From a virus: a stretch of DNA of 48,434 bases. The stretch covers positions 1-48,434 of IMG/VR virus record IMGVR_UViG_3300023434_000001; one strand, given 5' to 3'. Shown piece by piece: positions 8,399 through 48,434 of the stretch. Numbering within the stretch: position 1 is the stretch's first letter; every line of letters begins with the position of its first letter. The notes under the pieces are model-generated. The model did not search any database. It saw nothing but the letters and a program-made list of their open reading frames with translations, and was not told the origin of the DNA. The translations under genes and the position numbers were made by a program.

Positions 8399-9570
8399 TA
8401 TGTCGTTGTTGTTACGGTGTCAAAATTAACTATTATATTCATTTTCGCCCCTGCTCCTGCAACGGAAAAATATAGGGTTGACGCATTATCAGGATCTTTC
8501 AAGTAATGTCGTGGAATTATTTTCCATTTAGTGACGTAAGTAACCTTGCTTATGCTGCCCTGAACGGCATCAATTATATCTGTTCCGGCTATGGTAGTTC
8601 CAAGGGTCACCACTGCGATTGCTGCTGCGCTGGTTGAATCATGTTTAATCCATACAGAGTGCAACATATATCCTTCAGGATTTTCAACCTCCCACCCTGC
8701 GCTTGTTACTTCATCATTTCTTTTTGTTACTATCATGTTTTCCGGTGTTACTGATCCATCAGATCCAAGATCATCACTGTTTAATCCAACAGCATAAGTC
8801 TCAGTCATGTCAATAGACATTTTCATCAAAGTATTACCGTCAATTGGTTCTGGATCACCAATTTCAGGAACATTATATTGAATTTCATTTATTGTAAAGA
8901 AGTCTAATATAGAAGCGGCAATTATCTTTTCGCATAAATACCACGGTATATTTCCGGTCAGGAATATTTGACCTCTATATAACTTCGATGCAATGTTTGT
9001 TTTTGTATCAACATCTTCCAGTATGTCTACGCTACCATCAGGCTTATAAACGTCTCTGCTTTCCACATAGAAAAACATTTTGTCTAAAACAGTCCAATCG
9101 ATATATTGACCATCAGTAGATACATTAAAATCAAAATTAGTGTATTGAATTAACTTAATATCGCCATTTTCAATGTCTTCAGAAATATCAGATACACAAA
9201 TAGGCTCGCTCGTCAATGTATCAGAGCCTACTTGCTCTAATGTAAATGACACTATTTTATCATGATAATCTGCGGACATTTCAACCTCAAAATTCCAATA
9301 ATAACGAATATCAGAAGTCCCTCTGGTGGCAGCAAGTGTCCCGTTTATTGATTCCTTTTCGTAAGCAATAAATGTTTTGAGAATTGGCACTGTTGCAGAA
9401 TCACTTTCAAACTGAAGATAAATAGTATTGCTATTATTATACTTCTGCCAATATTTACCAACAGTTAGTCCGCCCTCTTTTTTATCGTTATAAAGACGAT
9501 TTGATCTGTTTGGATAGTTACCCGACAAATCCCAAAACGTAACGCTATTTAATACTGAACTAGCTAACAT
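8398..9570 (-). CDS. Tail-tip or baseplate-type structural protein (390 aa)
   Basis: A 390-aa beta-rich protein without enzyme motifs, between the 746-aa tail protein and the fibre, overlapping both by a few bases. The composition (many D, T, S, Y, V) and the position fit a tail-tip protein linking the distal tail to the fibre. Segment 100-130 and the C-terminal 80 residues look like separate beta domains. The exact role is inferred from gene order. Confidence 0.6.
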   Translation of the reverse strand: MLASSVLNSVTFWDLSGNYPNRSNRLYNDKKEGGLTVGKYWQKYNNSNTIYLQFESDSATVPILKTFIAYEKESINGTLAATRGTSDIRYYWNFEVEMSADYHDKIVSFTLEQVGSDTLTSEPICVSDISEDIENGDIKLIQYTNFDFNVSTDGQYIDWTVLDKMFFYVESRDVYKPDGSVDILEDVDTKTNIASKLYRGQIFLTGNIPWYLCEKIIAASILDFFTINEIQYNVPEIGDPEPIDGNTLMKMSIDMTETYAVGLNSDDLGSDGSVTPENMIVTKRNDEVTSAGWEVENPEGYMLHSVWIKHDSTSAAAIAVVTLGTTIAGTDIIDAVQGSISKVTYVTKWKIIPRHYLKDPDNASTLYFSVAGAGAKMNIIVNFDTVTTTT

Positions 9571-11800
9571 ATTTCTTTATTATAGATATTTCTGCCTCGT
9601 CACTGGCAACTTCTTGTCTAAACTTCATTAACCAGCCTGATAAATCATCTGTAAAAATAATTTTTTTTAATGGGCTGGCTATTAATAATTTTCTTTCTGC
9701 AAATGTTAATTTAACTCTGACTGTAAATACTTCAATTTCAAATATTGGATCATCTAAATTATCTACTAATATATTTTCATTTTCTGAAATTGTATAACCC
9801 TCTCCGGTTGTTCTTAGTGTTTGTAGTTTTTCAGAAGTTTGGAATAAGAACTTGCTTGATTTGTTCTTTACTAATGGTGATACTATTGCTGATACTAATT
9901 TATTGCTATGTCTTATTAAATTTCTTGTTGGTGAATAATATAGGTTAAAGGTTGAATCGCCAAAAATTGATGAATTATCTTCAATCGCAATATTTTCTTC
10001 AGCTTCAGGTTTCCACCAGGCATCAAAGTTCCTTTGAGTCTTAGTTATAAATAGCTCATTATCGCCTTTACTGTCTGTTGTTCCGGTTGTTCCTATTTCT
10101 TGACCTAAAAGCTTTAATATGCCCATTGTATCGGCTCTAATATCACTTACATTATCAAATTCAGTGTCAACCTTATTTATGGTTGTTCTAATTGATTCAG
10201 TATTAAATTCCCCACGCCCGTTTTTTTCTTCGTAATCATACTTTTTATACCCTGATTTCAAAGTAATATATGCAAGTTCCGGTAATACTTCGCTCTCAAT
10301 ATCAAGCGCGTTAATTCTGTCTGATAAATCCAGAACAGTATCATCTTGGAAAAACCATGCGTAATCTTCTATTCTTAGCCTGTTAGATCCATCGATAACC
10401 TGAAAAGTATAACCAATATTATCCATTGCATTTATACTTGAAAAGGCTTTTTCAAAACTAGTTGACAATGGGATATTTTCATCTCTTAATAAACCACCTC
10501 TGATATTTAACCCTGACTGTATTCCGGCAAATGTTGTCTGATCTTCAGTTAAATATTTATCCTTATCTAAATTATAAATAACATCTTCACGCCCGTATTT
10601 TTCACTGTAAAATGGAAATTGTGAATCGAATATGTGTTGACATAAACGCTCGAAAAATTCATATTTAGGCATACAATCTACCGTCCTGGCTGAAGTATTA
10701 GCGATTGTTTGCTTGAAAAACACCTCTGTATAAAGAGTAACATACGAACCGCTTCTATATACTGCTATATCATCCCAAAAACTTGCACCTAAATCAGCCC
10801 TATCCTGAACCTCCACAACCAGCTTGAATGAATTACCTTGTGTTATTGAAATATCAAAACTACCGTCATAAATTATTCTTTCGTCAGTAGTTCCAAACGA
10901 TTGAATAGTTCTAGTATTCTGAATAACACCACTAGCATCAGTTTCAAGTAGCTTAATAGACCATGCATTCGTTGAATCTTTATCGAAGATATTAATTACA
11001 AACTGATATTGAAAATTAAGATCATAATTAACCAATGCAGTATCAAAGATTGATTGAATATCGTTTAAATCTGTTTTTTGAACCACGTGAGGGACTGTGG
11101 TTAATTCTGATGGGAAATCAGAAAATAAAGTTTCTAATGGAACTGAACAATATGAAACACCCCCAGCAAGTCTTGGTAGTAAATATCCATCTTCACTTGT
11201 TGGCGTTCTTGATTGGCTAGTGTCTGTCAAGTTAGTAGCTGGATAGTTTATATACTTTTTAAATATCTCATATCCTAATGGATTGCTTTCGATTAATGAA
11301 TGCGGATAATCAATAATATCATAACCTCCAATAGAGACAGTTTTAGTCAAGTCGACATCAACACCTTTGCGATTTTCAAAGTTTACTAATTCATTACTAT
11401 TTTGGACTGTAAGATTAACTCCTATTTGAATTTTAGTATCTCCAACCCTTACAGCATGCCATGTGGAGAAAATTACAGCAAATCGAACCGGAAATTCTTC
11501 ATATTCGCGATCTTCACCATTAAACTCTTCAATTTTAAGTTCACAAGTTGCATTTATTCCATAAGTATCTTTTAGTCCTTTTAAGAAATTATATCCTTCT
11601 TTGATAAAAGTTAAGTTATCCAAAGCAAAGTTAATAAAAACACCACCAAATTTAATTTTACGTTCAAATTCTAAAACCCCTTTATTCCATTCTAAAGGTG
11701 AGTTTGTTAATACTTTAGAACCATCAGGCGATATAAGCGTGAACTTATACCGTGGAGGGGTGTTTGAAATGTATGCTTTTACCCATTCCTTAATTGCCAT
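9560..11800 (-). CDS. Distal tail or tail-associated protein (746 aa)
   Basis: Encoded directly after the tape measure, the standard place for distal tail and tail-associated (Tal-like) proteins of siphophages. The first about 130 residues (starting MAIKEWVKAY, with PRYKFTLISPDG) are beta-rich as in Dit-like domains. The middle resembles the multidomain baseplate hub pattern. No peptidase motif was found. It overlaps the tape measure gene by 11 bases and the next gene by 11. Confidence 0.65.
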   Translation of the reverse strand: MAIKEWVKAYISNTPPRYKFTLISPDGSKVLTNSPLEWNKGVLEFERKIKFGGVFINFALDNLTFIKEGYNFLKGLKDTYGINATCELKIEEFNGEDREYEEFPVRFAVIFSTWHAVRVGDTKIQIGVNLTVQNSNELVNFENRKGVDVDLTKTVSIGGYDIIDYPHSLIESNPLGYEIFKKYINYPATNLTDTSQSRTPTSEDGYLLPRLAGGVSYCSVPLETLFSDFPSELTTVPHVVQKTDLNDIQSIFDTALVNYDLNFQYQFVINIFDKDSTNAWSIKLLETDASGVIQNTRTIQSFGTTDERIIYDGSFDISITQGNSFKLVVEVQDRADLGASFWDDIAVYRSGSYVTLYTEVFFKQTIANTSARTVDCMPKYEFFERLCQHIFDSQFPFYSEKYGREDVIYNLDKDKYLTEDQTTFAGIQSGLNIRGGLLRDENIPLSTSFEKAFSSINAMDNIGYTFQVIDGSNRLRIEDYAWFFQDDTVLDLSDRINALDIESEVLPELAYITLKSGYKKYDYEEKNGRGEFNTESIRTTINKVDTEFDNVSDIRADTMGILKLLGQEIGTTGTTDSKGDNELFITKTQRNFDAWWKPEAEENIAIEDNSSIFGDSTFNLYYSPTRNLIRHSNKLVSAIVSPLVKNKSSKFLFQTSEKLQTLRTTGEGYTISENENILVDNLDDPIFEIEVFTVRVKLTFAERKLLIASPLKKIIFTDDLSGWLMKFRQEVASDEAEISIIKKYVS

Positions 11801-39490: not shown

Positions 39491-39562
39491 AAGGGAATAG
39501 CTTTAGGTGAAGTCACGTCAGTCATTGTTGTATGGCGAAGCGAACCGTTTAAAATTAAACTA

Positions 39563-39823
39563 ATGATAGATGATTTTGATTTAGAAAAAGAAGAGCGTAA
39601 ATTTAGCGCAAAGATGCTAAAAGGCACGAAAGTAGCCCGTGCAAACAACATGAACCTAACTAAGTTTAAAACAGAGATAGAAAAAGGGCTTTTAACAACA
39701 AACGATGAAGACCAATGGACTTTTGATTATCAAAGCTTCCTTGGTGCAATATCAAACGGTATTTATGAAAGCCCGACCGAATGGGCAGAAGAATACTTTA
39801 ACGGGCGGTGGTCATTAGTTTAA
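39563..39823 (+). CDS. Cassette 1 protein (86 aa), unknown
   Basis: First cassette gene (cassette opens at 39528, TTGTAT...). An 86-aa acidic protein starting MIDDFDLEKEERKF and ending EEYFNGRWSLV, with W and Y at the C-terminus. Possibly a small interaction domain. The preceding leader has no Shine-Dalgarno. No family recognised. Confidence 0.6.
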   Translation: MIDDFDLEKEERKFSAKMLKGTKVARANNMNLTKFKTEIEKGLLTTNDEDQWTFDYQSFLGAISNGIYESPTEWAEEYFNGRWSLV

Positions 39824-39834
39824 TTTTTAATGGC

Positions 39835-39929
39835 ATACAACGGTTTGTGTAAGATTATGTAGCACAACCACAAATGATGATTAAAAGTACAAAGGCTGTA
39901 TGTGCTATTAATTTTACACTTTGTTATAG
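39835..39929 (+). repeat. attC1 (95 bp)
   Basis: R'' ATACAAC (39835-39841), L'' GGTTTGTGTAAGATT, L' AATTTTACACTTT, R' GTTATAG (39923-39929). The inner arms GTAGCACAACC and GGCTGTATGTGCT also pair. R'' pairs with the opening TTGTAT of cassette 1. Confidence 0.75.
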
Positions 39930-39948
39930 CCAGTTATTATTACGTACA

Positions 39949-40179
39949 ATGAAAATTGAAATGCAGAAAAGAAAGGCGGGAATATATGCCCAATGGTTTA
40001 GTATAGACGGATTGAGCGGTGGAAAAAGAACTACCTACTTAATATATGCGAACCAAGCCAAGACCTACGCACAAGCTGTTAGATTTTGGAATAAAACGTG
40101 GGGTGGACGTAATGGGAACAAAGCCTTTGTATTGAGAAATGCCGAGCCGTATAACCCTAGTTCATATTTAGCCTGTTAA
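39949..40179 (+). CDS. Cassette 2 protein (76 aa), unknown
   Basis: Start at 39949 is chosen because the longer frame would begin inside attC1. Sequence begins MKIEMQKRKAGIYAQWFSID, a compact alpha/beta protein ending YNPSSYLAC. No family. Cassette opens TTATAGCC at 39924 and closes with GGCTATAC(C). Confidence 0.55.
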   Translation: MKIEMQKRKAGIYAQWFSIDGLSGGKRTTYLIYANQAKTYAQAVRFWNKTWGGRNGNKAFVLRNAEPYNPSSYLAC

Positions 40180-40183
40180 TTGG

Positions 40184-40225
40184 CTATACCGGACGGGTGT
40201 ATGTTTAGTTTTTTAACGGATAAAT
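40184..40225 (+). repeat. attC2 remnant
   Basis: CTATACCGGACGGGTGTATG: R''-like box with C in place of A (CTATACC, 40184-40190; expected CTATAAC from the cassette's start). No clear R' follows, so the site looks truncated and the next cassette's opening bases are missing too. Confidence 0.45.
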
Positions 40226-40233
40226 AAAAAGAT

Positions 40234-40476
40234 ATGATTAAAGAAGATGAATTAAGAGCTGAAATAACAAAGCTATTGGATGCTCACAATAGTAACGAGA
40301 TAGACAGCAGAGATGAATGGTATAGGGAAATGGTATATTTTAGAGATGCAGTAGTTAAAAAATTAAATATACACATTGTTAGCAATTCTGTTAAATGCGG
40401 CAATTGTGATGTAGAAATAAAACAAGGAGAAGTTTCTTATTGTGAAGAATGTTATGAAAGAGCGGTAAAATGGTAG
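40234..40476 (+). CDS. Cassette 3 zinc-ribbon protein (80 aa)
   Basis: Helical N-terminus (MIKEDELRAEITKLLDAHN) then a zinc ribbon: CGNC (about 57-60) and CEEC (about 72-75). Probably a small nucleic-acid or protein binding factor. Its cassette lacks the normal start box because attC2 is degraded. Confidence 0.55.
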   Translation: MIKEDELRAEITKLLDAHNSNEIDSRDEWYREMVYFRDAVVKKLNIHIVSNSVKCGNCDVEIKQGEVSYCEECYERAVKW

Positions 40477-40487
40477 CATTTAATTGT

Positions 40488-40546
40488 TGCTAACTGAAAG
40501 TATAAGATACGTTGCTTTTCGCAATGGATTTTATACGGTGTTACCT
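40488..40546 (+). repeat. attC3 (59 bp)
   Basis: R'' TGCTAAC (40488-40494), L'' GTATAAGATACG, terminal hairpin TTGC-TTTTC-GCAA, L' GGATTTTATACG, R' GTTACCT (40540-40546). Compact and well paired. Confidence 0.7.
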
Positions 40547-40590
40547 GAGCGAAGCGGACTGTTAAATTAAAATTTTAAAGCGTAGGAAAT

Positions 40591-40947
40591 ATGAATTATT
40601 ATAGAGTTTACACAGCCATAAAAGATGGTGAAAAAGTACCAAGGAAAGCAAAGAAAGTGATATTAGGTAAGCTAATGAATAAGGCAAAATTAAAAAAACT
40701 GCTTGATAGTGTGATAATAGGAGAGCAGGCACATACGATGTATGAGACCGCAGACATTAAGCCTTATTTATTTTGCCCACATTGCGGATGCCAACAAACA
40801 AGAAGTAGTGGTAATCTAACTGCACACCCTGAGCATTGGGAATATGAATACTGCTTGAGATGCAATAAGGTTGTTGGTTACATTGATAACAGCCCATATA
40901 CACATGCTTTAGAATGCAAGGACAATGATTATGACCCTGTTTTTTAG
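40591..40947 (+). CDS. Cassette 4 zinc-ribbon protein (118 aa)
   Basis: A basic N-terminal half (KDGEKVPRKAKKVILGKLMN) precedes CPHC (about 62-65) and CLRC (about 90-93), a zinc ribbon like those in restriction alleviation (Lar-type) or DNA-binding proteins. Cassette opens TTACCTG (40541) and closes with CAGGTAA. Confidence 0.55.
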   Translation: MNYYRVYTAIKDGEKVPRKAKKVILGKLMNKAKLKKLLDSVIIGEQAHTMYETADIKPYLFCPHCGCQQTRSSGNLTAHPEHWEYEYCLRCNKVVGYIDNSPYTHALECKDNDYDPVF

Positions 40948-40972
40948 TGTGGTGGCATTTTAATTTAATTGC

Positions 40973-41115
40973 AGGTAATGTTCGACTGCTAAGTTTCGTT
41001 TTGCCCGCCTTTCAAGGAAAGGATTGAGGGTAAAATGAAATTTAACACTGGTTAAGGATTGTTGGGTTTCGCTTACCCACTGCACTTTTAAGTAATAGGC
41101 AGTCGAACATTAAGG
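40973..41115 (+). repeat. attC4, long branched variant with A|TT core (143 bp)
   Basis: R'' AGGTAAT and R' ATTAAGG replace the usual AAC/GTT. P1 is TAATGTTCGACTGC (40976-40989) / GCAGTCGAACATTA (41099-41112), 14 bp. Inside: hairpin TTTCGTTTTGCCC / GGGTAAAATGAAA with CCTTTC/GAAAGG tip, a conserved AATTTAAC, then GGGTTTCGCTTACCC. It shares this plan with attC14. The sequence up to 41000 also forms the window's last 22 bases. Confidence 0.7.
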
Positions 41116-41156
41116 CTAATAGTTGGATTGGGAATTATTAATTTAAACTTACATAT

Positions 41157-41408
41157 ATGTCTAAGAATAGTAAAGAAAACTACAAAGTACACGCCCATTT
41201 TCATGGCGAAGTAACACCTGAATTTGCAGAGGTGTTTAATAAAATGGTTGTAGCTGGTGCAAAATTTGCAGATAGCGGAATTAATAATGGAGATACAAAA
41301 AAGAGAACGAGTAAACCATTTTGCAACTTTACTGTAAAAAATTCTCACTTTTGCCGTCGATGTCATAGGTGCGATATGTGCGACCAACAACCAAAAAATG
41401 GTTTGTGA
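41157..41408 (+). CDS. Cassette 5 protein with Cys cluster (83 aa)
   Basis: Starts MSKNSKENYKVHAHFHGEV. The C-terminus has HFCRRCHRCDMCDQQ, a likely metal site of four cysteines. The cassette is the clearest of all: opening TTAAGGCTAATAG (41110) and closing CTATTAGCCTTAAC (41417-41430), 13 complementary bases. Function unknown. Confidence 0.55.
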   Translation: MSKNSKENYKVHAHFHGEVTPEFAEVFNKMVVAGAKFADSGINNGDTKKRTSKPFCNFTVKNSHFCRRCHRCDMCDQQPKNGL

Positions 41409-41423
41409 AGCGAACGCTATTAG

Positions 41424-41487
41424 CCTTAACGGTACTCAGCTATGAAGCGGCTGAGGAACGAAGCTGATTTATGAGCTGATGTTATAG
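41424..41487 (+). repeat. attC5 (64 bp)
   Basis: R'' CCTTAAC (41424-41430), GGTACTCAGCTATG ... GGCTGAG, AAGCTGATTTATGAGCTGAT, R' GTTATAG (41481-41487). Arms pair as CTCAGC/GCTGAG with further AGCT repeats. Confidence 0.7.
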
Positions 41488-41524
41488 TGAGTTTTTTGAG
41501 TGGAAATGATTTAATAATTTATAT

Positions 41525-42025
41525 ATGAGAAAAGGAATAGGATCCCATCAATCCGCAAATATGAAAAAAGATGAATGGCTTACGCCTCCCGAAATTATTA
41601 AAGCATTGGGGGAATTTACCCTTGATCCTTGCGCCCCAGTGGTGCGCCCGTGGGAAATGGCAAATAAGCATTTAACCACAGAAGATGATGGACTGAAACA
41701 GCCGTGGGAGGGCAGGGTATGGTGTAACCCACCCTACGGACTTGAAGCAGCGAAATGGCTTGACAAGTTGAGCGAACACGGCAACGGAATAGCTTTAATA
41801 TTTGCCAGAACCGAAACCAGGATGTTTTTCGAATATGTGTGGAAACGTGCAACTGCCGTGTTGTTTATTGAGGGCAGGCTTTACTTCCACCATGTTGACG
41901 GATCCAAAGCCCGAGCGAATGCAGGCGCACCTTCGGTATTAATAGCTTATGGTAACAATAACGCAGAAACCTTGAAGAATTGTACAATCAAGGGTAAATT
42001 TTTGGCGTTGGGAAATTCACTATAA
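41525..42025 (+). CDS. Cassette 6: phage Dam-type DNA N6-adenine methyltransferase (166 aa)
   Basis: Matches the short phage Dam family (PF05869 type): WLTPPEIIKALGEFTLDPCA (18-37) contains the AdoMet-binding DPCA, and CNPPYG (67-72) is the catalytic NPPY. It would methylate adenine, protecting phage DNA or marking it. The gene is visibly richer in G and C than its neighbours, a sign of transfer. The cassette opens TTATAGTGA and closes TCACTATAAC, nine complementary bases. Confidence 0.85.
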   Translation: MRKGIGSHQSANMKKDEWLTPPEIIKALGEFTLDPCAPVVRPWEMANKHLTTEDDGLKQPWEGRVWCNPPYGLEAAKWLDKLSEHGNGIALIFARTETRMFFEYVWKRATAVLFIEGRLYFHHVDGSKARANAGAPSVLIAYGNNNAETLKNCTIKGKFLALGNSL

Positions 42026-42050
42026 CGGTAAGTTGTATGCTTTGTTGGCG
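42020..42050 (+). repeat. attC6 (31 bp, minimal)
   Basis: R'' CTATAAC (42020-42026), AAG, loop TTGTATG, CTT, R' GTTGGCG (42044-42050). AAC-GGT-AAG pairs with CTT-T-GTT. Much shorter than the rest; perhaps deleted in its stem. R'' overlaps the stop codon of the methyltransferase. Confidence 0.6.
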
Positions 42051-42080
42051 TACCAAATATTAATAAATAAAATTTAAAAA

Positions 42081-42431
42081 ATGAAAGATTCAAATTTACA
42101 CCCACTTTTCAATGAAATACTTAATAGCCAATTAAGTATACAAAATGTTACCAACTTTCAATTTACGGATGAAATGCAATGGCTAAGTAACCTTTTGCCA
42201 AAACGTTACAACTGTGAATTAAGAAAAAAAGGCGTGCATTGCTACGATACTACTGGCGAAGGTATCAGTGATGACCACATGACGCACGATAAATACAACC
42301 CTGAAACAGACAACCAATGGATGCTAATAACGAAAGCCATTAAACAGAAGTTTGGCAAAAGGTTGATGGAAATATATAGCCAAGAGACACAATACAACTC
42401 TAAGTTTACCGTATACCTACGACCTGAGTAA
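42081..42431 (+). CDS. Cassette 7 protein (116 aa), unknown
   Basis: A mixed alpha/beta soluble protein starting MKDSNLHPLFNEILNSQ. It contains RYNCELRKKGVHCYD and ends SKFTVYLRPE. Family unknown. Its cassette opens TTGGCG but closes TGGTAAT, which do not match, so this cassette may be recombinant. Confidence 0.55.
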   Translation: MKDSNLHPLFNEILNSQLSIQNVTNFQFTDEMQWLSNLLPKRYNCELRKKGVHCYDTTGEGISDDHMTHDKYNPETDNQWMLITKAIKQKFGKRLMEIYSQETQYNSKFTVYLRPE

Positions 42432-42440
42432 ATTTATTGT

Positions 42441-42509
42441 TGGTAATGACTAGTGTATGTTGTCGGAATTTGTTTTTCACAAATTATGCACTATGACACG
42501 TTGTTACCT
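42441..42509 (+). repeat. attC7 (69 bp)
   Basis: R'' TGGTAAT (42441-42447), loop hairpin AATTTGT-TTTTC-ACAAATT, R' GTTACCT (42503-42509). The only site where a T in R'' faces a G in R' (a G.T pair), breaking the covariation rule. Confidence 0.6.
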
Positions 42510-42571
42510 GTCTTTGTTTTATTTTTTTTTAGGGAGGGTTTAATTTTCTTTAAAAATAAATAGCAATACAC

Positions 42572-42602
42572 TTGCATATGTAATACAATTGCTATATATT
42601 CG
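42572..42602 (+). promoter_or_regulatory. Promoter inside cassette 8
   Basis: -33 TTG (42572-42574), a 20-nt spacer, -7 TATATTCG (42595-42602; one base from consensus). Shows that this cassette carries its own promoter, as toxin-antitoxin cassettes usually do. Confidence 0.55.
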
Positions 42603-42634
42603 CAGTATTAAATTATTAATTAAAAATTATTCAA

Positions 42635-42814
42635 ATGAAAACATTTAAAACAAAAGGATTGCCTTATTATGTAAAAGGATGTAATAATGTATTTAATGCA
42701 GCAACAACACTTATCGAAAATAAGATAGGGGTAACAGAAAATGACTTAGAAGAAGTGACTACTGATTTAATACCTATTGGAGCAACTATATTCTGTTACA
42801 CTAAAAAACTATAA
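42635..42814 (+). CDS. Cassette 8 first protein (59 aa), TA-like partner
   Basis: ATG at 42635, TAA at 42812-42814, one base before the next ATG. Starts MKTFKTKGLPYYVKGCNNVF. A small basic/hydrophobic protein preceding a ribbon-helix-helix protein. It could be the partner (toxin or target) in a toxin-antitoxin pair. No toxin family recognised. Confidence 0.5.
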   Translation: MKTFKTKGLPYYVKGCNNVFNAATTLIENKIGVTENDLEEVTTDLIPIGATIFCYTKKL

Positions 42815-42815
42815 A

Positions 42816-42974
42816 ATGAGTAAAGTACAACTACCAGTAAGGATTGAGCAAGATGATTTAAACACCTTAAAGGAACTTGCGGAACAAGACAATAGACCAC
42901 TAAGCAATTATGTTGATACTGTGCTTAAAAACCATATTGCTTTGAAAAAGCAAAAGAGCGTTGGCAAAAAATAA
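42816..42974 (+). CDS. Cassette 8 ribbon-helix-helix protein (52 aa)
   Basis: ATG at 42816; a longer frame from 42777 would overlap the upstream gene. LPVRIEQDDLNTLKELAEQ then RPLSNYVDTVLKNHI is the RHH fold (strand, helix A, helix B) typical of antitoxin DNA-binding domains. Probably represses its own promoter at 42572-42602. Confidence 0.65.
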   Translation: MSKVQLPVRIEQDDLNTLKELAEQDNRPLSNYVDTVLKNHIALKKQKSVGKK

Positions 42975-42982
42975 AATATTGC

Positions 42983-43050
42983 AGGTAACGGTTTGGCTAT
43001 GAAGCGGATTTTGTTTTTCACAAAATATGATTTATGAGCCGTTGTTATAC
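42983..43050 (+). repeat. attC8 (68 bp)
   Basis: R'' AGGTAAC (42983-42989), L'' GGTTTGGCTATGAAGCGG, hairpin ATTTTGT-TTTTC-ACAAAAT, then ATTTATGAGCCGTT and R' GTTATAC (43044-43050). Cassette opens TTACCTG and closes CAGGTAA. Confidence 0.75.
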
Positions 43051-43101
43051 ACTGGCACTTTACCCACAGAAATTAAATACGAACTAAAAGAAAAAATAGA
43101 G

Positions 43102-43392
43102 ATGGCAACTTACGAATTACCAGACACAGTAAAAGAACTATTTGAACAAGGAGAAAACCAGTACAGAATAATTGACTATGCGCCAGAGATGGAAATGGAT
43201 AATAACCAAAGTATGGAATGCTTCCTTGACCATATTGGAGCAACTGGAGACAATATTAAGTGCCACGATGGTACACAGGTTACATTAATACATCCAGATT
43301 ATGGAATGATGTACGTAGTTGACGCAGGAGGGTTGGGGGATTTTTTCTCTCACGGATTTGAGGTAAGTTTACACGAGAGCGATAATGATTAG
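43102..43392 (+). CDS. Cassette 9 acidic protein (96 aa)
   Basis: The ATG at 43102 is preferred over one at 43027, which lies inside attC8. The acidic protein starts MATYELPDTVKELFEQGENQ and ends HESDND. It contains DYGMMYVVDAGGLGDFF. Family unknown; possibly an anti-defence or regulatory acidic protein. Opens TTATACAC, closes GTGTATAAC. Confidence 0.55.
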   Translation: MATYELPDTVKELFEQGENQYRIIDYAPEMEMDNNQSMECFLDHIGATGDNIKCHDGTQVTLIHPDYGMMYVVDAGGLGDFFSHGFEVSLHESDND

Positions 43393-43399
43393 TGCTTGT

Positions 43400-43460
43400 G
43401 TATAACGAATGGTTGTATGTGGCGTGGCTTTTCGCCATGACACATGACAACGTGTTAGGT
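43400..43460 (+). repeat. attC9 (61 bp)
   Basis: R'' GTATAAC (43400-43406), GTTGTATGTGGCGTGGC, loop TTTTC, GCCATGACACATGACAAC, R' GTTAGGT (43454-43460). Long, well-paired arms (GTTGTATGTG/CACATGACAAC). Confidence 0.75.
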
Positions 43461-43511
43461 GCTTTTAAATAAAAAAATAGGGAAGGAATTTTTAATTTAA
43501 AATATAAAACA

Positions 43512-44117
43512 ATGAGAACTAATTTAGAGAAATGGAATTATTACTTATCAATTGTTAAAAAGCGTGAAGAAGAGTATATTAAGAATAATGTGGATAAAAT
43601 GCCAGAATACGTTTATTTTATTTATCCTACAGGTAAGATTAGAAAGTTGCAGATAACATATATAAGTTATAGTAACCGATTGTATTTTTATGGCAAAAAA
43701 CCAACAAGGGACGATGTTAAGAAAATAAACGACTATGTAATTGATAACAGCCCAATGACCTTAGATAATGTTCATGTAGGATGGAAAAGTATTGGTGAAA
43801 AATACAATAGCAGTAGTGCTTTTAAATATACCGAAAGAGACCAATATTTAAGCAAACAGGAGGTTGAAATAAAGAGCAAGGAAGCGACTAAGAAAAAGGA
43901 AGATGAAGAAATATTATTAAACAATGGACACATAAGATGTGTATACTGCAATAAGGTTGTTCCAGAAAAAGATTCAATTAGCCATACTATTATATTTCAA
44001 AATAGCAGACAAGACCCATACAGTAGAACTGGGTGGAAAAAGTTTGTTGATAGAAAGACAAATAAATACTGTTCTGGCAAATGTGGAGGTAATGACCAAA
44101 TGGCACACGAAGGTTAA
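43512..44117 (+). CDS. Cassette 10 protein with C-terminal zinc motif (201 aa)
   Basis: The largest cassette protein of unknown type. Starts MRTNLEKWNYYLSIVKKREE; a beta-rich segment YFIYPTGKIRKLQITYI; a charged helix around 110-130; then CVYCNK (about 142-147) and a C-terminal YCSGKCGG, probably a zinc site of two knuckles. Opens TTAGGTGC, closes GCACCTAAC. Confidence 0.6.
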   Translation: MRTNLEKWNYYLSIVKKREEEYIKNNVDKMPEYVYFIYPTGKIRKLQITYISYSNRLYFYGKKPTRDDVKKINDYVIDNSPMTLDNVHVGWKSIGEKYNSSSAFKYTERDQYLSKQEVEIKSKEATKKKEDEEILLNNGHIRCVYCNKVVPEKDSISHTIIFQNSRQDPYSRTGWKKFVDRKTNKYCSGKCGGNDQMAHEG

Positions 44118-44169
44118 TCTAATGGTTTTGCAAAAACCAAAGTGCGGTGGGATTATTTTATTTTATTGC

Positions 44170-44263
44170 ACCTAACGGTCTATGTAAGATTTGAAGCGTA
44201 ACCAGTACCGATGATTAATTGCGTAAACGCCATATACGCTTTTAATTTTACATTTTGTTATGG
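44170..44263 (+). repeat. attC10 (94 bp)
   Basis: R'' ACCTAAC (44170-44176), L'' GGTCTATGTAAGAT, inner GAAGCGTAACC...GCGTAAACGCC, L' AATTTTACATTTT, R' GTTATGG (44257-44263). Same architecture as attC1. Confidence 0.75.
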
Positions 44264-44279
44264 CGAGTTAATTAGATAG

Positions 44280-44528
44280 ATGAAAAAAATTGAATTTGAA
44301 ACTTACCGGGATTTAACAAGTGGCTACAATATTGCAGGTATGAAATCAGAGAATCCGAGTGCTATAAATTTTTTGAGCTACAAGAAATATAAGGTTACAA
44401 TTGAAGAGATAGAAGAACCTAAAGCCGTTTTGATTAAAAGATTACGAGAGCTATTGAAAAAAACTACTGGATTCAACCAAGCAAGTAGCATTAAAGATGA
44501 AATTAAACGGCTTGAACTACTACCCTAA
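44280..44528 (+). CDS. Cassette 11 protein (82 aa), unknown
   Basis: ATG at 44280, only 22 bases after the cassette start. A basic protein starting MKKIEFETYRDLTSGYNIAG; C-terminal amphipathic helix (AVLIKRLRELLKKTTGF). Opens TTATGGCG and closes CGCCATAAC, eight complementary bases. Family unknown. Confidence 0.55.
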   Translation: MKKIEFETYRDLTSGYNIAGMKSENPSAINFLSYKKYKVTIEEIEEPKAVLIKRLRELLKKTTGFNQASSIKDEIKRLELLP

Positions 44529-44532
44529 TTCG

Positions 44533-44597
44533 CCATAACGGTTCGTGTAAGTTGCGTTGAACACAGACGTTGATTAGTTGAACTGACTTAGTTTTAG
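44533..44597 (+). repeat. attC11 (65 bp)
   Basis: R'' CCATAAC (44533-44539), GGTTCGTGTAAGT ... ACTTA, R' GTTTTAG (44591-44597). Divergent R' box but it pairs with the closing box of the next cassette (AAAACTTTTAAAAC). Confidence 0.6.
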
Positions 44598-44641
44598 AAG
44601 TTTTTGGGAGGGATTTTTTTTTAATTTTTAAATATATAATT

Positions 44642-45067
44642 ATGAATATACCACAATTTAGAGTTTGGGACAAAAGTAAATATAGAATGATTCAGGGCGA
44701 TTTACTTAATATTTCTTTTGGAGGGAATAATTTTGGAGTATATTATCTTGAAGAAAGCGAATTATGTTTAGGCAATGAAGAAGATTTTATATTAATGATG
44801 TGGACTGGATTAACCGACCAAAACAATACCAGAATATATGATGGGGATATTATTGAATTTATTGAGTTTAATTTTGAACATGGAATGGAGGTTGAATACG
44901 AAAGAAAAGGAGTGGTTAGTGTTGATTTTGGATGTGACGGAGTTTGTACATCTTTTACTATATTGGGAGAAAAAATGGAAATTCCATTAACTTTTATCAC
45001 GGAGATTGCGAGTGATACTATCCTTGTAATTGGAAATACAATGAAGGAGAAACCATTGAATGTGTAA
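44642..45067 (+). CDS. Cassette 12 YopX-family protein (141 aa)
   Basis: YopX (PF09643) small phage/plasmid protein of unknown role. Signatures: FRVWDKSKYRM at the N-terminus (6-16), MMWTGLTDQNNTRIYDGDII (about 52-71), and the C-terminal VIGNTMKEKPLN. Length matches the family. Found in a cassette coupled with the next gene. Confidence 0.8.
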   Translation: MNIPQFRVWDKSKYRMIQGDLLNISFGGNNFGVYYLEESELCLGNEEDFILMMWTGLTDQNNTRIYDGDIIEFIEFNFEHGMEVEYERKGVVSVDFGCDGVCTSFTILGEKMEIPLTFITEIASDTILVIGNTMKEKPLNV

Positions 45068-45401
45068 CTGCAAAAACATAATACCACAAAGCAAAGAATG
45101 TTATTCTAATATGATTACGGTAGAAATACCTGAACACATGAAAGAATATAGAGACAATCGAGTAAATGCTGGACTAAGCAGTAAAATTTCAATTGACCCA
45201 TGTATTTATAATGAAATATGCGAATTGTGGAAACTTGAAATTATAACTTATGGTTCTTGTTGTGGACACAATAAACGGGAATCATTTGTTAATGTTGCCG
45301 ATGAAAATATTTCCCAAATGTTAGAAATGGGATATATTCAGAATCACCATGACAAAAATCGTAAGGATACGTTTCGTCTTAAAAGTTTTGAAAAAACTTA
45401 G
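45060..45401 (+). CDS. Cassette 12 second protein (113 aa)
   Basis: ATG at 45060 overlaps the YopX stop by 8 bases; an alternative start is 45111 (MITVEIPEHMKEYRDNR). The core, VEIPEHMKEYRDNRVNAG and TYGSCCGHNKRE, resembles small phage proteins often encoded near YopX genes. The short Cys-rich N-terminus (MCNCKN) is optional. Unknown function. Confidence 0.6.
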   Translation: MCNCKNIIPQSKECYSNMITVEIPEHMKEYRDNRVNAGLSSKISIDPCIYNEICELWKLEIITYGSCCGHNKRESFVNVADENISQMLEMGYIQNHHDKNRKDTFRLKSFEKT

Positions 45402-45417
45402 TGCGGTTGGAAAACTT

Positions 45418-45486
45418 TTAAAACGGTCAAACTTATGCAAACTTTGATTAAACGCTTGACACAATGCAATTTACACTTTGTTATAA
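45418..45486 (+). repeat. attC12 (69 bp)
   Basis: R'' TTAAAAC (45418-45424), GGTCAAACTTATGC, inner GATTAAACGCTTGACACAATGC, L' AATTTACACTTT, R' GTTATAA (45480-45486). Cassette start TTTTAGAAGTTTT pairs with AAAACTTTTAAAA (12 of 13). Confidence 0.65.
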
Positions 45487-45577
45487 GCCGTTGTTTGTCT
45501 AAAAGTTCGTCTAAAGTTTAACTAATTAGACGTTGCTTAGACATTTTTAGCTGAACTTTAGACAATGGCTTTATAAC
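45481..45577 (+). other. Cassette 13, ORF-less structured cassette (~97 bp plus attC)
   Basis: Opens TTATAAGCC and closes GGCTTTATAAC with no ORF between. Instead it holds nested inverted repeats: TTGTCTAAAAGTTC (45495-45508) / GAACTTTAGACAA (45553-45565) and CGTCTAA (45508-45514) / TTAGACG (45526-45532). A small RNA, a regulatory element or a decayed cassette are the options. Confidence 0.6.
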
Positions 45578-45630
45578 GTTTGGGTAAGTTTAGTGCGCCA
45601 ATTACGCAGAATTTTGATAAAAGAGATAAA
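45571..45630 (+). repeat. attC13 remnant
   Basis: R'' TTATAAC (45571-45577) and L'' GTTTGGGTAAGTTT are present, followed by GCGCCAATTACGC. No R' partner is found before the next gene, so the site appears truncated. The start box of cassette 14 is missing as well. Confidence 0.45.
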
Positions 45631-45658
45631 GTAATAATAACCTAATTAGTGAACGGAT

Positions 45659-45982
45659 ATGAAAAAAGCAGATGCAAAATACATACTTGAAGCAATAGAG
45701 TGGATGAATAAAAATACAACTGTTGCAAGTGTAGATATGGAAACATACGGCAATTTATTTATGAATAGCCAAAATTTATTAATGGATGAAGTGAACGATG
45801 CCGAAAAAAGCGATGAACCAGCATTAAATTTACCCGTTGTTAACGGCTGTGCTTTGTTAAATGAAGTACTAGACCACCAGCAGGAGGTAATAAGCAGCCC
45901 TATTCGCTTCAATGGAGTACATATAGATACAATTAAGCAACTATTTGGCAAGTACGGAATAATGTACAAGGATATGTTTTAG
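45659..45982 (+). CDS. Cassette 14 protein (107 aa), unknown
   Basis: An acidic helical protein starting MKKADAKYILEAIEWMNKN; segments NLPVVNGCALLNEVLDHQ and GVHIDTIKQLFGKYGIMYKD. No family recognised. Its 5' box is lost but it ends with the long attC14. Confidence 0.55.
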   Translation: MKKADAKYILEAIEWMNKNTTVASVDMETYGNLFMNSQNLLMDEVNDAEKSDEPALNLPVVNGCALLNEVLDHQQEVISSPIRFNGVHIDTIKQLFGKYGIMYKDMF

Positions 45983-45988
45983 CATTGC

Positions 45989-46130
45989 CGTTAATGTCTC
46001 TGAGCTAAATACTGTTAACCCCGCATTTGGGACAAATGAGATAGGGGTTAATGGAATTTAACTCCTTGTTAGGATTACGTTCGATTGCGAACAGGAAAGG
46101 CTACTAGATCACGGCTCAGAGACATTAGGA
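45989..46130 (+). repeat. attC14, long branched variant with A|TT core (142 bp)
   Basis: R'' CGTTAAT and R' ATTAGGA. P1 TAATGTCTCTGAGC (45992-46005) / GCTCAGAGACATTA (46114-46127), 14 bp. Inner P2 TTAACCCC/GGGGTTAA capped by CATTTGGGACAAATG, conserved GAATTTAAC and TTGTTAGGATT, and TTCGATTGCGAA. It aligns with attC4 end to end, differing by compensatory changes in each stem. Confidence 0.7.
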
Positions 46131-46165
46131 GTTATTCTAAATACTGAAAATTAAAAATTATTGAT

Positions 46166-46300
46166 ATGTCGAAGAAATTAACAAAAGATGAAGCCGCAAA
46201 AAAGCGAGACTTTCACAGAAAAAGAGCTAAATATTACGATAAGAAATACATTGAATGCAAAGCCAAAGAGAAGCGCATAGGCTTCAAGTGGTATGATTAA
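46166..46300 (+). CDS. Cassette 15 small basic protein (44 aa)
   Basis: ATG at 46166, TAA at 46298-46300. MSKKLTKDEAAKKRDFHRKR; lysine- and arginine-rich, helical, ending RIGFKWYD. Cassette opens TTAGGAGTTA and closes TAACTCCTAA (10 complementary bases). Probably nucleic-acid binding. Confidence 0.55.
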   Translation: MSKKLTKDEAAKKRDFHRKRAKYYDKKYIECKAKEKRIGFKWYD

Positions 46301-46350
46301 TTTTTGATGAAAGGATTTATAGATTGAGAGGCACGAGCAATCGTATTAAC

Positions 46351-46445
46351 TCCTAACGGTTTGGCTATGTTTAGTTGCCGAACGATAAACTTCAAAAACT
46401 AAGCACAAATTTTCAGCGGCAATTAAATATGAGCCGTTGTTATAA
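46351..46445 (+). repeat. attC15 (95 bp)
   Basis: R'' TCCTAAC (46351-46357), L'' GGTTTGGCTATGTTTAGTTGCCG, L' CGGCAATTAAATATGAGCC, R' GTTATAA (46439-46445). Arms GGTTTGGCT/GAGCC and TTGCCG/CGGCAA pair. Confidence 0.75.
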
Positions 46446-46459
46446 AACGTTTTTTAGCG

Positions 46460-46726
46460 ATGGGAAAATATACAGGAATTACAGGAAAGTTAAGTATTGG
46501 CGATGTTATCCATGTAGGTAATCCAATACGAAAAGAAGAATATTGCTACTACGGAGTAACCGACATTGACGGCAATAAAGCCAAGACTGGATTTAGAACA
46601 TTTAATGCTAATATTTATCACGATAAGTTTATTTATGAGTACGGAAAGAAAGATTCGCAATATGATAATTGCTATACAGTAAGTAGTTTGGAAGCCGCAA
46701 AAGAAGCGGGGGCAAATGTTTTATAA
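46460..46726 (+). CDS. Cassette 16 protein (88 aa), unknown
   Basis: A beta-rich protein starting MGKYTGITGKLSIGDVIHVG; segment EEYCYYGVTDIDGNKAKTG; C-terminal helix SSLEAAKEAGANVL. SH3-like barrel is possible. The stop lies within R'' of attC16. Opens TTATAAAAC, closes GTTTTATAA. Confidence 0.55.
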   Translation: MGKYTGITGKLSIGDVIHVGNPIRKEEYCYYGVTDIDGNKAKTGFRTFNANIYHDKFIYEYGKKDSQYDNCYTVSSLEAAKEAGANVL

Positions 46727-47052
46727 TGGCCTTGCTAAACGTAGTTTCTGGGTATGTAAGAATTTAAAATTGAAATGATGGAAGAAACACAAAAGATTCT
46801 AAAAAAACTTGCTGCTGCTGGACTATTTCATCCAGATGGATTTAACGAACAAATACAAGATGATTTTCTAGAGGACTTAAAACCCTTTAGCTCTGTAACT
46901 GAAAATGATATTTCAATTTTAGAGGCTGAGAATACCAAGGAAACTCAAAAAGACCAGAAGTAGCTATGCTCCAATTACGTTTAGCTATTGTTAGAAAATC
47001 GGTAATCCCGTTTACCCGGGAAAACTTTTTGAGGTTAGCAAGGCCATTAGAA
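46721..47052 (+). repeat. attC16, A|TT variant split by a gene (332 bp)
   Basis: Outer arms TAATGGCCTTGCTAA (46724-46738) and TTAGCAAGGCCATTA (47035-47049) are exact complements, 15 bp. R'' is TTATAAT and R' is ATTAGAA. Between them sits a 62-aa ORF, and then a 3' half (TTTAGCTATTGTTAG...GTTTACCCGGGAAAAC) that aligns with attC4 and attC14. The gene thus lies where the first internal stem-loop of the long attC would be. Confidence 0.6.
46775..46963 (+). CDS. ORF nested within attC16 (62 aa)
   Basis: ATG at 46775 (or 46778). Acidic helical protein starting MMEETQKILKKLAAAGLFHP, ending ENTKETQKDQK. Preceded by an AT-rich leader like other cassette genes. It lies inside the palindrome of attC16; secondary insertion of a cassette, or a gene carried in an attC loop, would explain it. 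Function unknown. Confidence 0.5.
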   Translation: MMEETQKILKKLAAAGLFHPDGFNEQIQDDFLEDLKPFSSVTENDISILEAENTKETQKDQK

Positions 47053-47105
47053 AACAGACAGCCTGAGAATTGAGGCACGAAATGAAGGGATTTCTGTTTT
47101 CTAAC
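47047..47105 (+). other. Cassette 18, ~59-bp ORF-less mini-cassette
   Basis: Opens TTAGAAAACAG (47047) and closes CTGTTTTCTAAC (47094-47105), 11 complementary bases. There is no room for a gene. It contains ATTGAGGCACGA, nearly the same as ATTGAGAGGCACGA (46324-46337) at the tail of cassette 15, so it may be a deleted relative of that cassette. Confidence 0.6.
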
Positions 47106-47145
47106 GGACAGCGGTATGTTGCGTTTTTTATTTACGGATTAAAAA
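47099..47145 (+). repeat. attC18 remnant
   Basis: R'' TTCTAAC (47099-47105) and GGACAGCGGTATGTTGCG, then AT-rich DNA without an R' box. Looks truncated, and the next cassette lacks the opening box expected from its closing TGCTAAC. Confidence 0.45.
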
Positions 47146-47160
47146 CTAAAAATTAATTAT

Positions 47161-47421
47161 ATGACACGAGATGAAATAGTAGATTTCTTAGAATGGGCAA
47201 AGGAAGAAGGACAATTGCAGTTCCCAGAAAGCAAAAAAGTAGATATGGCAGAAATGTACATAAAAGAGCATGATGTAGTAAATAAAACATGCAATATACC
47301 GTATGTTAGCAATAACGAAGTGGCGGTTTGCCCTAAATGCAAAGGTGCTTCAAATAGCTACATACATGGATTTCGGACATACTGTGATAGATGTGGAGGA
47401 ACTGGGCAAACTGATTGCTAA
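47161..47421 (+). CDS. Cassette 19 zinc-ribbon protein (86 aa)
   Basis: Helical N-terminus (MTRDEIVDFLEWAKEEGQLQ) and a C-terminal zinc ribbon with CPKCKG (about 57-62) and CDRCGG (about 75-80), the CxxCxG pattern of DnaJ-like zinc domains. Likely a small protein-binding or nucleic-acid-binding factor. The TAA stop is part of the R'' box. Confidence 0.6.
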   Translation: MTRDEIVDFLEWAKEEGQLQFPESKKVDMAEMYIKEHDVVNKTCNIPYVSNNEVAVCPKCKGASNSYIHGFRTYCDRCGGTGQTDC

Positions 47422-47476
47422 CGGTTCGGCTGTATGTGGCGCGGTTTTTCACCGTGACATATAAAGCTTGTTACCT
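47416..47476 (+). repeat. attC19 (61 bp)
   Basis: R'' TGCTAAC (47416-47422), GGTTCGGCTGTATGTGGCGCGG, loop TTTTTC, CACCGTGACATATAAAGC, R' GTTACCT (47470-47476). Shares its design with attC9. Confidence 0.7.
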
Positions 47477-47542
47477 GCTTTTTGTTTTTAATATTTTTAG
47501 GGATGGCAAACTAATTTTGAAAAAATTAATCTTTTCTTGGAT

Positions 47543-47588
47543 TATATTTGTATATACAAAATAAAGAACTATATTTGTGTATACAAAA
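47543..47588 (+). promoter_or_regulatory. Promoter overlapped by two operator-like palindromes
   Basis: Promoter -33 TTTG (47547-47550), 19-nt spacer, -7 TATATTTG (47570-47577). A 19-bp motif TATATTTGTnTATACAAAA occurs twice (47543-47561, 47570-47588; one difference). Each copy contains the palindrome TTTGTATATACAAA (first copy perfect), 27 bp apart. One covers the -33 box, the other covers the -7 and start site. Ideal operators for the RHH repressor at the end of this cassette. Confidence 0.65.
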
Positions 47589-47599
47589 ACGATAAAGAC

Positions 47600-47788
47600 A
47601 TGAAAAACGAAACAAGATTTAACGAAATAAGCAGCAAACTAAACGAAATGTTTAAAGGTAAAAGTGAAACTAAAAAAGATGAATTAGTAAAAGGTTTAAA
47701 AAACTGGTGTAAGATAAACGCAAACTCAGCAGACAAAGCCAAATTAGAGGCTATTAAAAGCTTTTTGGCTGACAATAATATTTTTTAA
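47600..47788 (+). CDS. Cassette 20 first protein (62 aa), small helical
   Basis: ATG at 47600 just after the operators; a longer frame from 47537 would overlap the promoter. Starts MKNETRFNEISSKLNEMFKG, helical and lysine-rich, ending SFLADNNIF. First gene of a three-gene operon in the last cassette. Function unknown; possibly an antitoxin or a small structural partner. Confidence 0.5.
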   Translation: MKNETRFNEISSKLNEMFKGKSETKKDELVKGLKNWCKINANSADKAKLEAIKSFLADNNIF

Positions 47789-47790
47789 TT

Positions 47791-48237
47791 ATGAAAATAC
47801 CTGAAATAAAAGGAAAGAATATACTTATAATCGGATGCCCTGCTAGTGGCAAAACATTTATGAGTGCATTGTTTAATTCTAATGATCATGAAATATTTCA
47901 CACTGACGACTACATAAAGTTTGGCTACAAAGAAAGCATGTATCAGTGTTTGAGTGATGTTATAAAATGCAAAAAGAATACAATTACTGAAGGTGTACAA
48001 GGATATAGAATGCTTAGAAAAGGAGTAGAATTAAATAACTATTACCCAGATATGATTATTGAGTTAAAAATAACTGAGCAGCTAATGTTCTCTACTTACA
48101 AGAAAGAGAGAAGCGCAAAAAAAATTAAGTACTTGGCAGGATTTAATAAGATGCACGATAAAATATTGACTGACTACAAAAATATGGCAAACAACAAAAA
48201 GCCTGAATGGATAATAATAAATAACGATTATGACTAA
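47791..48237 (+). CDS. Cassette 20 P-loop kinase-like protein, toxin candidate (148 aa)
   Basis: Walker A GCPASGKT at residues 15-22, followed by HTDDY (37-41), like the acidic pair after the P-loop in zeta-toxin and nucleotide kinases. TITEGVQGYRML is the next conserved-looking segment. It could phosphorylate a nucleotide, nucleic acid end or cell wall precursor. The companion RHH gene overlaps its end by 8 bases, which makes a toxin-antitoxin pairing likely but unproven. Confidence 0.6.
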   Translation: MKIPEIKGKNILIIGCPASGKTFMSALFNSNDHEIFHTDDYIKFGYKESMYQCLSDVIKCKKNTITEGVQGYRMLRKGVELNNYYPDMIIELKITEQLMFSTYKKERSAKKIKYLAGFNKMHDKILTDYKNMANNKKPEWIIINNDYD

Positions 48238-48412
48238 AGAAAACCTAAAGCCCAAAATGACACGAATGACTGACACGATGAAATCGGACATTCAAAAAAG
48301 CGCAGATAAAAATAACGAAGGTGTATTCGACAGAGAATTACGAGACTTAATCCAAATCGGTTTGAAAAACCGAAAAGGGAAGGGGAAAATATTAAAAATT
48401 AATTGCAGGTAA
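48230..48412 (+). CDS. Cassette 20 ribbon-helix-helix (Arc-like) protein (60 aa)
   Basis: RMTDTMKSDIQKSADKNNEG then RELRDLIQIGLKNRKG follow the Arc/RHH pattern: a strand, helix A, helix B with basic tail. It would bind the tandem palindromes at 47543-47588 and repress the operon. The gene continues across the contig ends (same as 1-126). The stop TAA is inside the AGGTAA box that closes the cassette. Confidence 0.65.
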   Translation: MTKENLKPKMTRMTDTMKSDIQKSADKNNEGVFDRELRDLIQIGLKNRKGKGKILKINCR

Positions 48413-48434
48413 TGTTCGACTGCTAAGTTTCGTT
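48287..48434. repeat. Right terminal repeat plus 22-base alternative junction
   Basis: 48287-48412 equals 1-126. At 48413 the two copies part: the left copy goes on with CTAGGGG, the right copy with TGTTCGACTGCTAAG. Bases 48399-48434 match 40965-41000 exactly (36 bases), i.e. the end of cassette 4 and the first arm of attC4. So the cassette 20 end has been joined to a long attC of the attC4 type in some molecules. Confidence 0.8.

Follow-up and report, generated by a model that had tools for sequence, protein, structure and literature searches.

The window analysed here is the whole of the 48,434-nt viral record IMGVR_UViG_3300023434_000001, which encodes a portal protein, a large terminase, a tape measure protein and a DnaB-like helicase, and which also carries a long array of gene cassettes bounded by integron-type attC recombination sites. 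Bases 1-126 exactly repeat 48287-48412 (a 126-bp terminal repeat), which implies a circular or terminally redundant molecule, and the array meets the other phage DNA at 126|127. In every cassette the two ends are complementary to each other and the sites fold into imperfect hairpins, as expected of an integron attC array or a cluster of attC sites lacking integron-integrases (CALIN). Eighteen such hairpins give 18 whole cassettes (153 to 991 nt) plus a partial one at the left end. A complete integron would have intI in cis; the tyrosine recombinase family PF00589 has no match in the window, a record that may be incomplete. The original prediction, made from the letters alone, held that base covariation fixes the crossover at the right hairpin feet, as (G/A)|TT on the + strand, with every gene upstream of its own attC. 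The array and its sites are as follows, with left and right as seen on the + strand.

39527 to 48412: cassette array with 18 hairpin sites, comprising 18 whole cassettes and a partial one, open reading frames (ORFs) on the + strand, recombination polarity that of the − strand
39841 to 39923, − strand: attC S1, hairpin
40189 to 40378, − strand: attC S2, the loop containing the start of an ORF (40234-40476) that crosses the right foot
40494 to 40540, − strand: attC S3, hairpin
40979 to 41051, − strand: attC S4 proper, with AA|T as left foot and G|TTAAGG (at 41052) as right foot
41430 to 41481, − strand: attC S5, hairpin
42026 to 42147, − strand: attC S6, loop with the start of ORF 42081-42431
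42447 to 42503, − strand: attC S7, left foot AA|T opposite G, the exception named in the original prediction
42989 to 43044, − strand: attC S8, hairpin
43406 to 43454, − strand: attC S9, hairpin
44176 to 44257, − strand: attC S10, hairpin
44539 to 44591, − strand: attC S11, weak stem
45424 to 45480, − strand: attC S12, weak stem, in a cassette without an ORF (45424-45576)
45577 to 45839, − strand: attC S13, loop with the start of ORF 45659-45982
45995 to 46068, − strand: attC S14 proper, with AA|T as left foot and G|TTAGGA (at 46069) as right foot
46357 to 46439, − strand: attC S15, hairpin
46727 to 46990, − strand: attC S16 proper, with AA|T as left foot and G|TTAGAAAA (at 46991) as right foot, loop with ORF 46775-46963
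47105 to 47305, − strand: attC S17, loop with the start of ORF 47161-47421
47422 to 47470, − strand: attC S18, hairpin

The pairing on which the prediction was built is real, and it extends to 18 sites where 15 had been counted. Bases following TT pair with the end of their own cassette at 97/108 positions (six per site), compared with a mean of 42.9 in shuffled sequence (SD 5.9, maximum 69); none of 20,000 shuffles reached 97, and pairing with the end of the preceding cassette was found at only 39/108. The examples originally given, TTAAGGCTAATAG, TTAGAAAACAG and TTATACAC, are exact. However, the TTxxx and xxxAA of one cassette stay together, and C and G come to lie in one hairpin, whichever foot is cut, so the pairing cannot locate the crossover: TTxxx and xxxAA pair equally under AA|C or G|TT. 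The claim that covariation places the cut at the right foot was therefore not borne out.

Natural variants locate it. Phage contigs L002 and L003 are 99.95% identical and differ by exactly two cassettes. L003 reads CTTGCCCCTAA|CTAAGATATATG (a CCCCTAA| junction), and between the same flanks L002 has the two cassettes, CTTGCCCCTAA|CGGTTTGC ... ATTGCACCTAA|CTAAGATATATG (CCCCTAA|C...CACCTAA|C), the extra DNA having its hairpin first and its gene and xxxAA last. This two-cassette block recurs in a further contig, L098 (99.86%), with different neighbours, and a 318-nt cassette common to L002 and L098 (1 mismatch in 320) provides a third junction pair. Every gain or loss junction falls inside CTAA|C, with the nearest right feet tens of bases away, and in L002, L003 and L098 the cassettes have moved as units with core-site boundaries at AA|C. 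The cassettes had been described as inserted one by one, which holds in part, since one clean event moved two at once. Crossover at the right foot is contradicted by shared and missing blocks that start with a hairpin and end at AA|C, and is already refuted by L002 and L003 unless both junctions are assembly errors.

A different account of these contigs is that they are assembly chimeras, or products of homologous recombination at attC repeats, and that the array itself is static. The junctions do have 4-7 nt in common, some contigs end at or near such a junction, and a variant at the end of the window (described below) has 14 nt in common with 40965-40978. We consider this account improbable, as the junctions form three separate sets and every set coincides with the same foot, L098 and L002 arrange their more than 99% identical cassettes in different orders, and the common tracts are too short for general recombination.

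Three further lines of evidence bear on polarity. The longer spacer is in the 5′ arm at 23/26 phage sites and at 13/15 bacterial sites with attI, and IntI, on the right (L134, L135, L138), whereas with attI on the left the asymmetry is opposite in 6/7 bacterial sites; the extrahelical base, part of the attC asymmetry that goes with strand choice, also lies on the same side as in attI-right integrons. No ORF crosses a left foot (0/21), while four cross right feet (4/21: 40234-40476, 42081-42431, 45659-45982 and 47161-47421) because their start codons sit within attC loops, and a right-foot cut would split all four. Finally, in the recombinase-linked arrays found with R1, a covariance model built from 13 phage sites, the recombinase is always on the right in the window's + view (L159, L160, L177, L217-L219, L221, L222, L225-L227), the wrong side for a right-foot crossover.

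Together the natural variants, arm asymmetry, ORFs and relatives place the cut at AA|C on the + strand, which is G|TT on the − strand, with a putative attI at the right end. The crossover is thus at the left hairpin foot, opposite to the one first proposed, and an integron-type array made by a (G/A)|TT reaction stands, though not its place or strand. The right-foot arrangement has in its favor that the mirror-symmetric base pairing fits it equally and that its table of foot bases is significant (Fisher p = 0.005); we nevertheless regard it as very improbable, given the contradictions above and the source of its T-A pairs.

Fourteen sites have G as the base preceding the cut on the − strand and four have A (S4, S7, S14 and S16), with the A-type left feet at 40978|40979, 42446|42447, 45994|45995 and 46726|46727. 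In the attC proper of all four, the foot T opposes G. Using the feet originally chosen, we reproduced the reported table (14 C-G, 3 T-A, 1 T-G at 42447/42503), with the T-A pairs lying outside attC proper; with true attC feet the counts become 14 C-G and 4 T-G, which leaves no covariation of any kind. S4, S14 and S16 are ordinary attC sites with an internal right foot G|TT (41052, 46069 and 46991), and 55-58 nt beyond that foot each has an exact inverted copy of its own cassette's end-to-start junction:

41099 to 41122, unstranded: inverted copy of the S4 cassette junction, exact, 24 nt, the source of A|TT at 41109
46114 to 46134, unstranded: inverted copy of the S14 cassette junction, exact, 21 nt, with A|TT at 46124
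47035 to 47058, unstranded: inverted copy of the S16 cassette junction, exact, 24 nt, with A|TT at 47046

On the attC side of the cut the copies span 11-12 nt, as opposed to 1 nt in normal sites. The apparent T-A covariation is a by-product of these three copies, to which all the T-A pairs are confined. A|TT does occur, at the four left feet read on the − strand, and not at 41109, 46124 or 47046 where it had been placed. A check of 24 cassettes in L098, L002 and L160 found no inverted copy, and the left feet there are all followed by C. The copies may be functional, for example as a lock that pairs out the cut site, instead of template-switching scars, and their layout speaks for a function: three cassettes of unrelated sequence have attC, a 55-58-nt stretch with a small hairpin and a 21-24-nt exact inverted copy in the same order. 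We find a function doubtful, as none of those 24 other cassettes has a copy and perfect identity also fits recent snap-back copying.

The right end of the array is reached through the terminal repeat, and the contig end carries a variant of it:

127 to 150, − strand: attI-like site at the right array end, cut 126|127 (GCAGGTAA|CTAGGGGATATGTGTATCTAAATAG), reached via the terminal repeat 1-126 = 48287-48412
48413 to 48434, unstranded: variant at the contig end, in which the head of the S4 cassette (a copy of 40979-41000) replaces the attI-like sequence after the same cassette end

Judged by its sequence, the motif at 127-150 is conserved, common to the window and L002/L003, and appears to resemble the ends of chromosomal arrays. 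The phage array ends AA|CTAGGGGATATGTGTATC and AA|CTAAGATATATGTACACC resemble a motif, AA|CTTGTTTATA or AA|CTAGTTATAT, just before the 3′ end of many array-linked recombinase genes. The contig-end variant may possibly be a cassette insertion at attI, or an assembly or read chimera. Scans for further contigs spanning the array ends turned up only L002 and L003, and the same-species contigs L008-L011 stop short of the array. Known phages have no relative of the array, with distant methyltransferase matches only, or of the neighbouring helicase. An attC pattern search of genome contigs gave a single match, by chance, within an ORF (L007). A cassette-end chain finder, which in AT-rich loci performed no better than on shuffles, served only to select candidate arrays that were then read by eye.

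To ask which enzyme could act on the array, we turn to its relatives. R1 matched in 11/390 Bacteroidota genomes. L160, which is chromosomal, has at least eight cassettes in an array adjoining a 375-aa tyrosine recombinase; L177 with L161 is a second chromosomal array with a recombinase; and L159, a prophage (terminase, portal, head proteins) that is also an IMG/VR record, has a 268-aa recombinase directly behind an attI-like AA|CTATTATATATC. Among homologues of the L160 recombinase, 8/13 loci with usable flank have R1 sites (seven at E <= 0.1, one at 0.16), always in the same polarity. These array-linked recombinases are without the IntI-specific inserts in the catalytic domain, with a KDR-to-HxLRH distance of 56-66 aa in most homologues versus 103 in all 39 measurable IntI, and none of their genomes is among the 107 IntI-positive ones. 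The insert is not fully conserved in an 'integron-like subgroup', and it has been termed essential for integron function (PMC8138268).

With the same polarity and crossover, the enzyme could instead be the ordinary IntI of a Bacteroidota host. IntI above the curated cut-off is present in 105 of 395 sampled Bacteroidota genomes, arm geometry is common to phage and IntI arrays, and IntI1 is able to recombine five of six tested phage attC sites (PMC9892861). Host IntI is thus a serious rival that we still judge unlikely, as R1 finds 0/20 IntI loci at E <= 0.1, yet finds arrays beside Xer-like recombinases in genomes that lack IntI. Given this linkage and the lack of a recombinase in the phage, we infer a trans-acting enzyme, probably other than classical IntI. 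The original wording, that cassettes were inserted as integron integrases do, is uncertain with regard to the enzyme. Linkage in the relatives suggests a simpler recombinase than the classical integron integrase.

We hypothesize, with a probability of roughly three in four, that this is an integrase-less phage array cut at the left foot AA|C, with attI at its right end and an enzyme, probably Xer-like, working in trans. Each cassette would read attC hairpin and then gene on the + strand, and recombination would be read on the − strand, with crossover between G (A at four sites) and TT, equal to AA|C (AA|T) at the left feet of the + strand. Cassettes would be gained and lost at the attI-like site, at 126|127 in a circular genome. 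The enzyme would be a host Xer-like tyrosine recombinase, related to IntI and without IntI-specific inserts, a last step that draws on chromosomal and prophage linkage. Several points weigh against this. Each contig comparison narrows the crossover to about 4-7 nt (CTAA|C and its neighbours), the exact bond being borrowed from integrons. No hairpin can be recognised to the left of the leftmost cassette, L098 could be non-phage DNA, and the contig-end variant may be a chimera. Several homologue loci have no R1 match, and the enzyme is taken from relatives. The folded + strand is more stable at 15/18 sites (p = 0.002), which is not diagnostic; we set folding energy aside as a polarity test because the bacterial reference integrons show no such bias.

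Two cassette genes have recognisable families:

41525 to 42025, + strand: Dam-type DNA N6-adenine methyltransferase (PF05869)
44642 to 45067, + strand: YopX family (PF09643)

Orientation differs strongly between the phage and chromosomal cassettes. In phage and prophage arrays 41 ORFs point toward attI and 3 away, whereas in chromosomal arrays of this attC type 17 point toward it and 97 away, by a simple ORF count in which L098 is taken as phage only because IMG/VR lists it. In a Bacteroidota integron with IntI (L138:6069-7390), several cassette ORFs also face attI.

Other features of the cassettes were seen along the way. ORFs 40234-40476 and 47161-47421 have a common C-terminal zinc-ribbon-like part (VSNxxVxCxxC) and different N termini; domain shuffling by attC cuts, an idea raised by the four ORFs that cross right feet, was dropped once polarity was known. 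The cassettes at L002:1405-2177 and window 43394-44176 are alike at both ends, sharing a 5′ leader that includes AAATAGGGAGGGATT as well as a 3′ trailer, and encode unrelated products, one a DNA methyltransferase and the other a protein of 201 aa, which looks like a gene swap within a cassette frame. Many cassette ORFs are preceded by a recurring leader motif, similar to AGGGAGGG, and then a T-rich stretch (window 42531, 43480, 44604 and 47494; L002:856 and 1487; L098:2760 and 3660). Other phages (L095:4201-5270, L096:610-1855) carry one or two methyltransferase or unknown cassettes of the same attC type amid ordinary phage genes, outside any long array. The L159 prophage array has three group II intron copies with an identical 426-aa reverse transcriptase (− strand 5181-6461, 7350-8630 and 9648-10928), each at the right foot of an attC-like hairpin, like group IIC-attC introns.

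The place and strand of cassette cutting are corrected here, and the contig variants provide direct evidence from nature for gain, loss and reshuffling of phage-borne cassettes despite the phage having no integrase. The work also directs attention to a recombinase that would process attC-like hairpins while lacking the insert regarded as essential in integrons, so that the origin of integrons becomes open to testing, and the different gene orientation in phage and chromosomal cassette pools bears on useful gene exchange between them. Evenly balanced in our judgement is the proposal of a second integron lineage in Bacteroidota and their phages, in which an Xer-like recombinase without IntI inserts would have attI at the 3′ end of its gene and phages would carry attI and cassettes with no enzyme, their genes opposite to chromosomal ones. 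In the open-access literature, preprints aside, we found no account of attI-bearing cassette arrays in phages that includes evidence that cassettes move, nor any of linkage between attC arrays and recombinases without IntI inserts.

CALINs in phages are already known, from Tetrasphaera phage TJE1, Polaribacter phage P12002L and Pseudoalteromonas phage PH101 (Qi et al. 2023, PMC9892861). Those are likewise integrase-less attC arrays with DNA methyltransferase cassettes, one of them in a Bacteroidota phage. The window array differs in its size (about 18 cassettes), attI-like site, natural gain, loss and reshuffling, genes facing attI, coding sequence within attC loops and the A that ends four cassettes. 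Chromosomal IntI integrons of Bacteroidota (TIGR02249, for example L135) are alike in paired cassette ends, arm asymmetry, attI at one end and G|TT crossover, but their IntI has about 41 extra residues between KDR and HxLRH, their attC do not match the phage model, and their genes mostly point away from attI. The closest recombinases are in the Xer-like XerA/IntI neighbourhood (NF040815; PDB 4a8e, 5hxy; IntI4 2a3v; the 'integron-like subgroup' of PMC8138268), for which the papers found describe no cassettes. Against NF040815 (cut-off 220) and TIGR02249 (cut-off 265), the array-linked recombinase reaches 218 and 211 bits, respectively, and unlike that neighbourhood it has a ~100-aa N-terminal extension and lies beside an attC array and an attI-like site.

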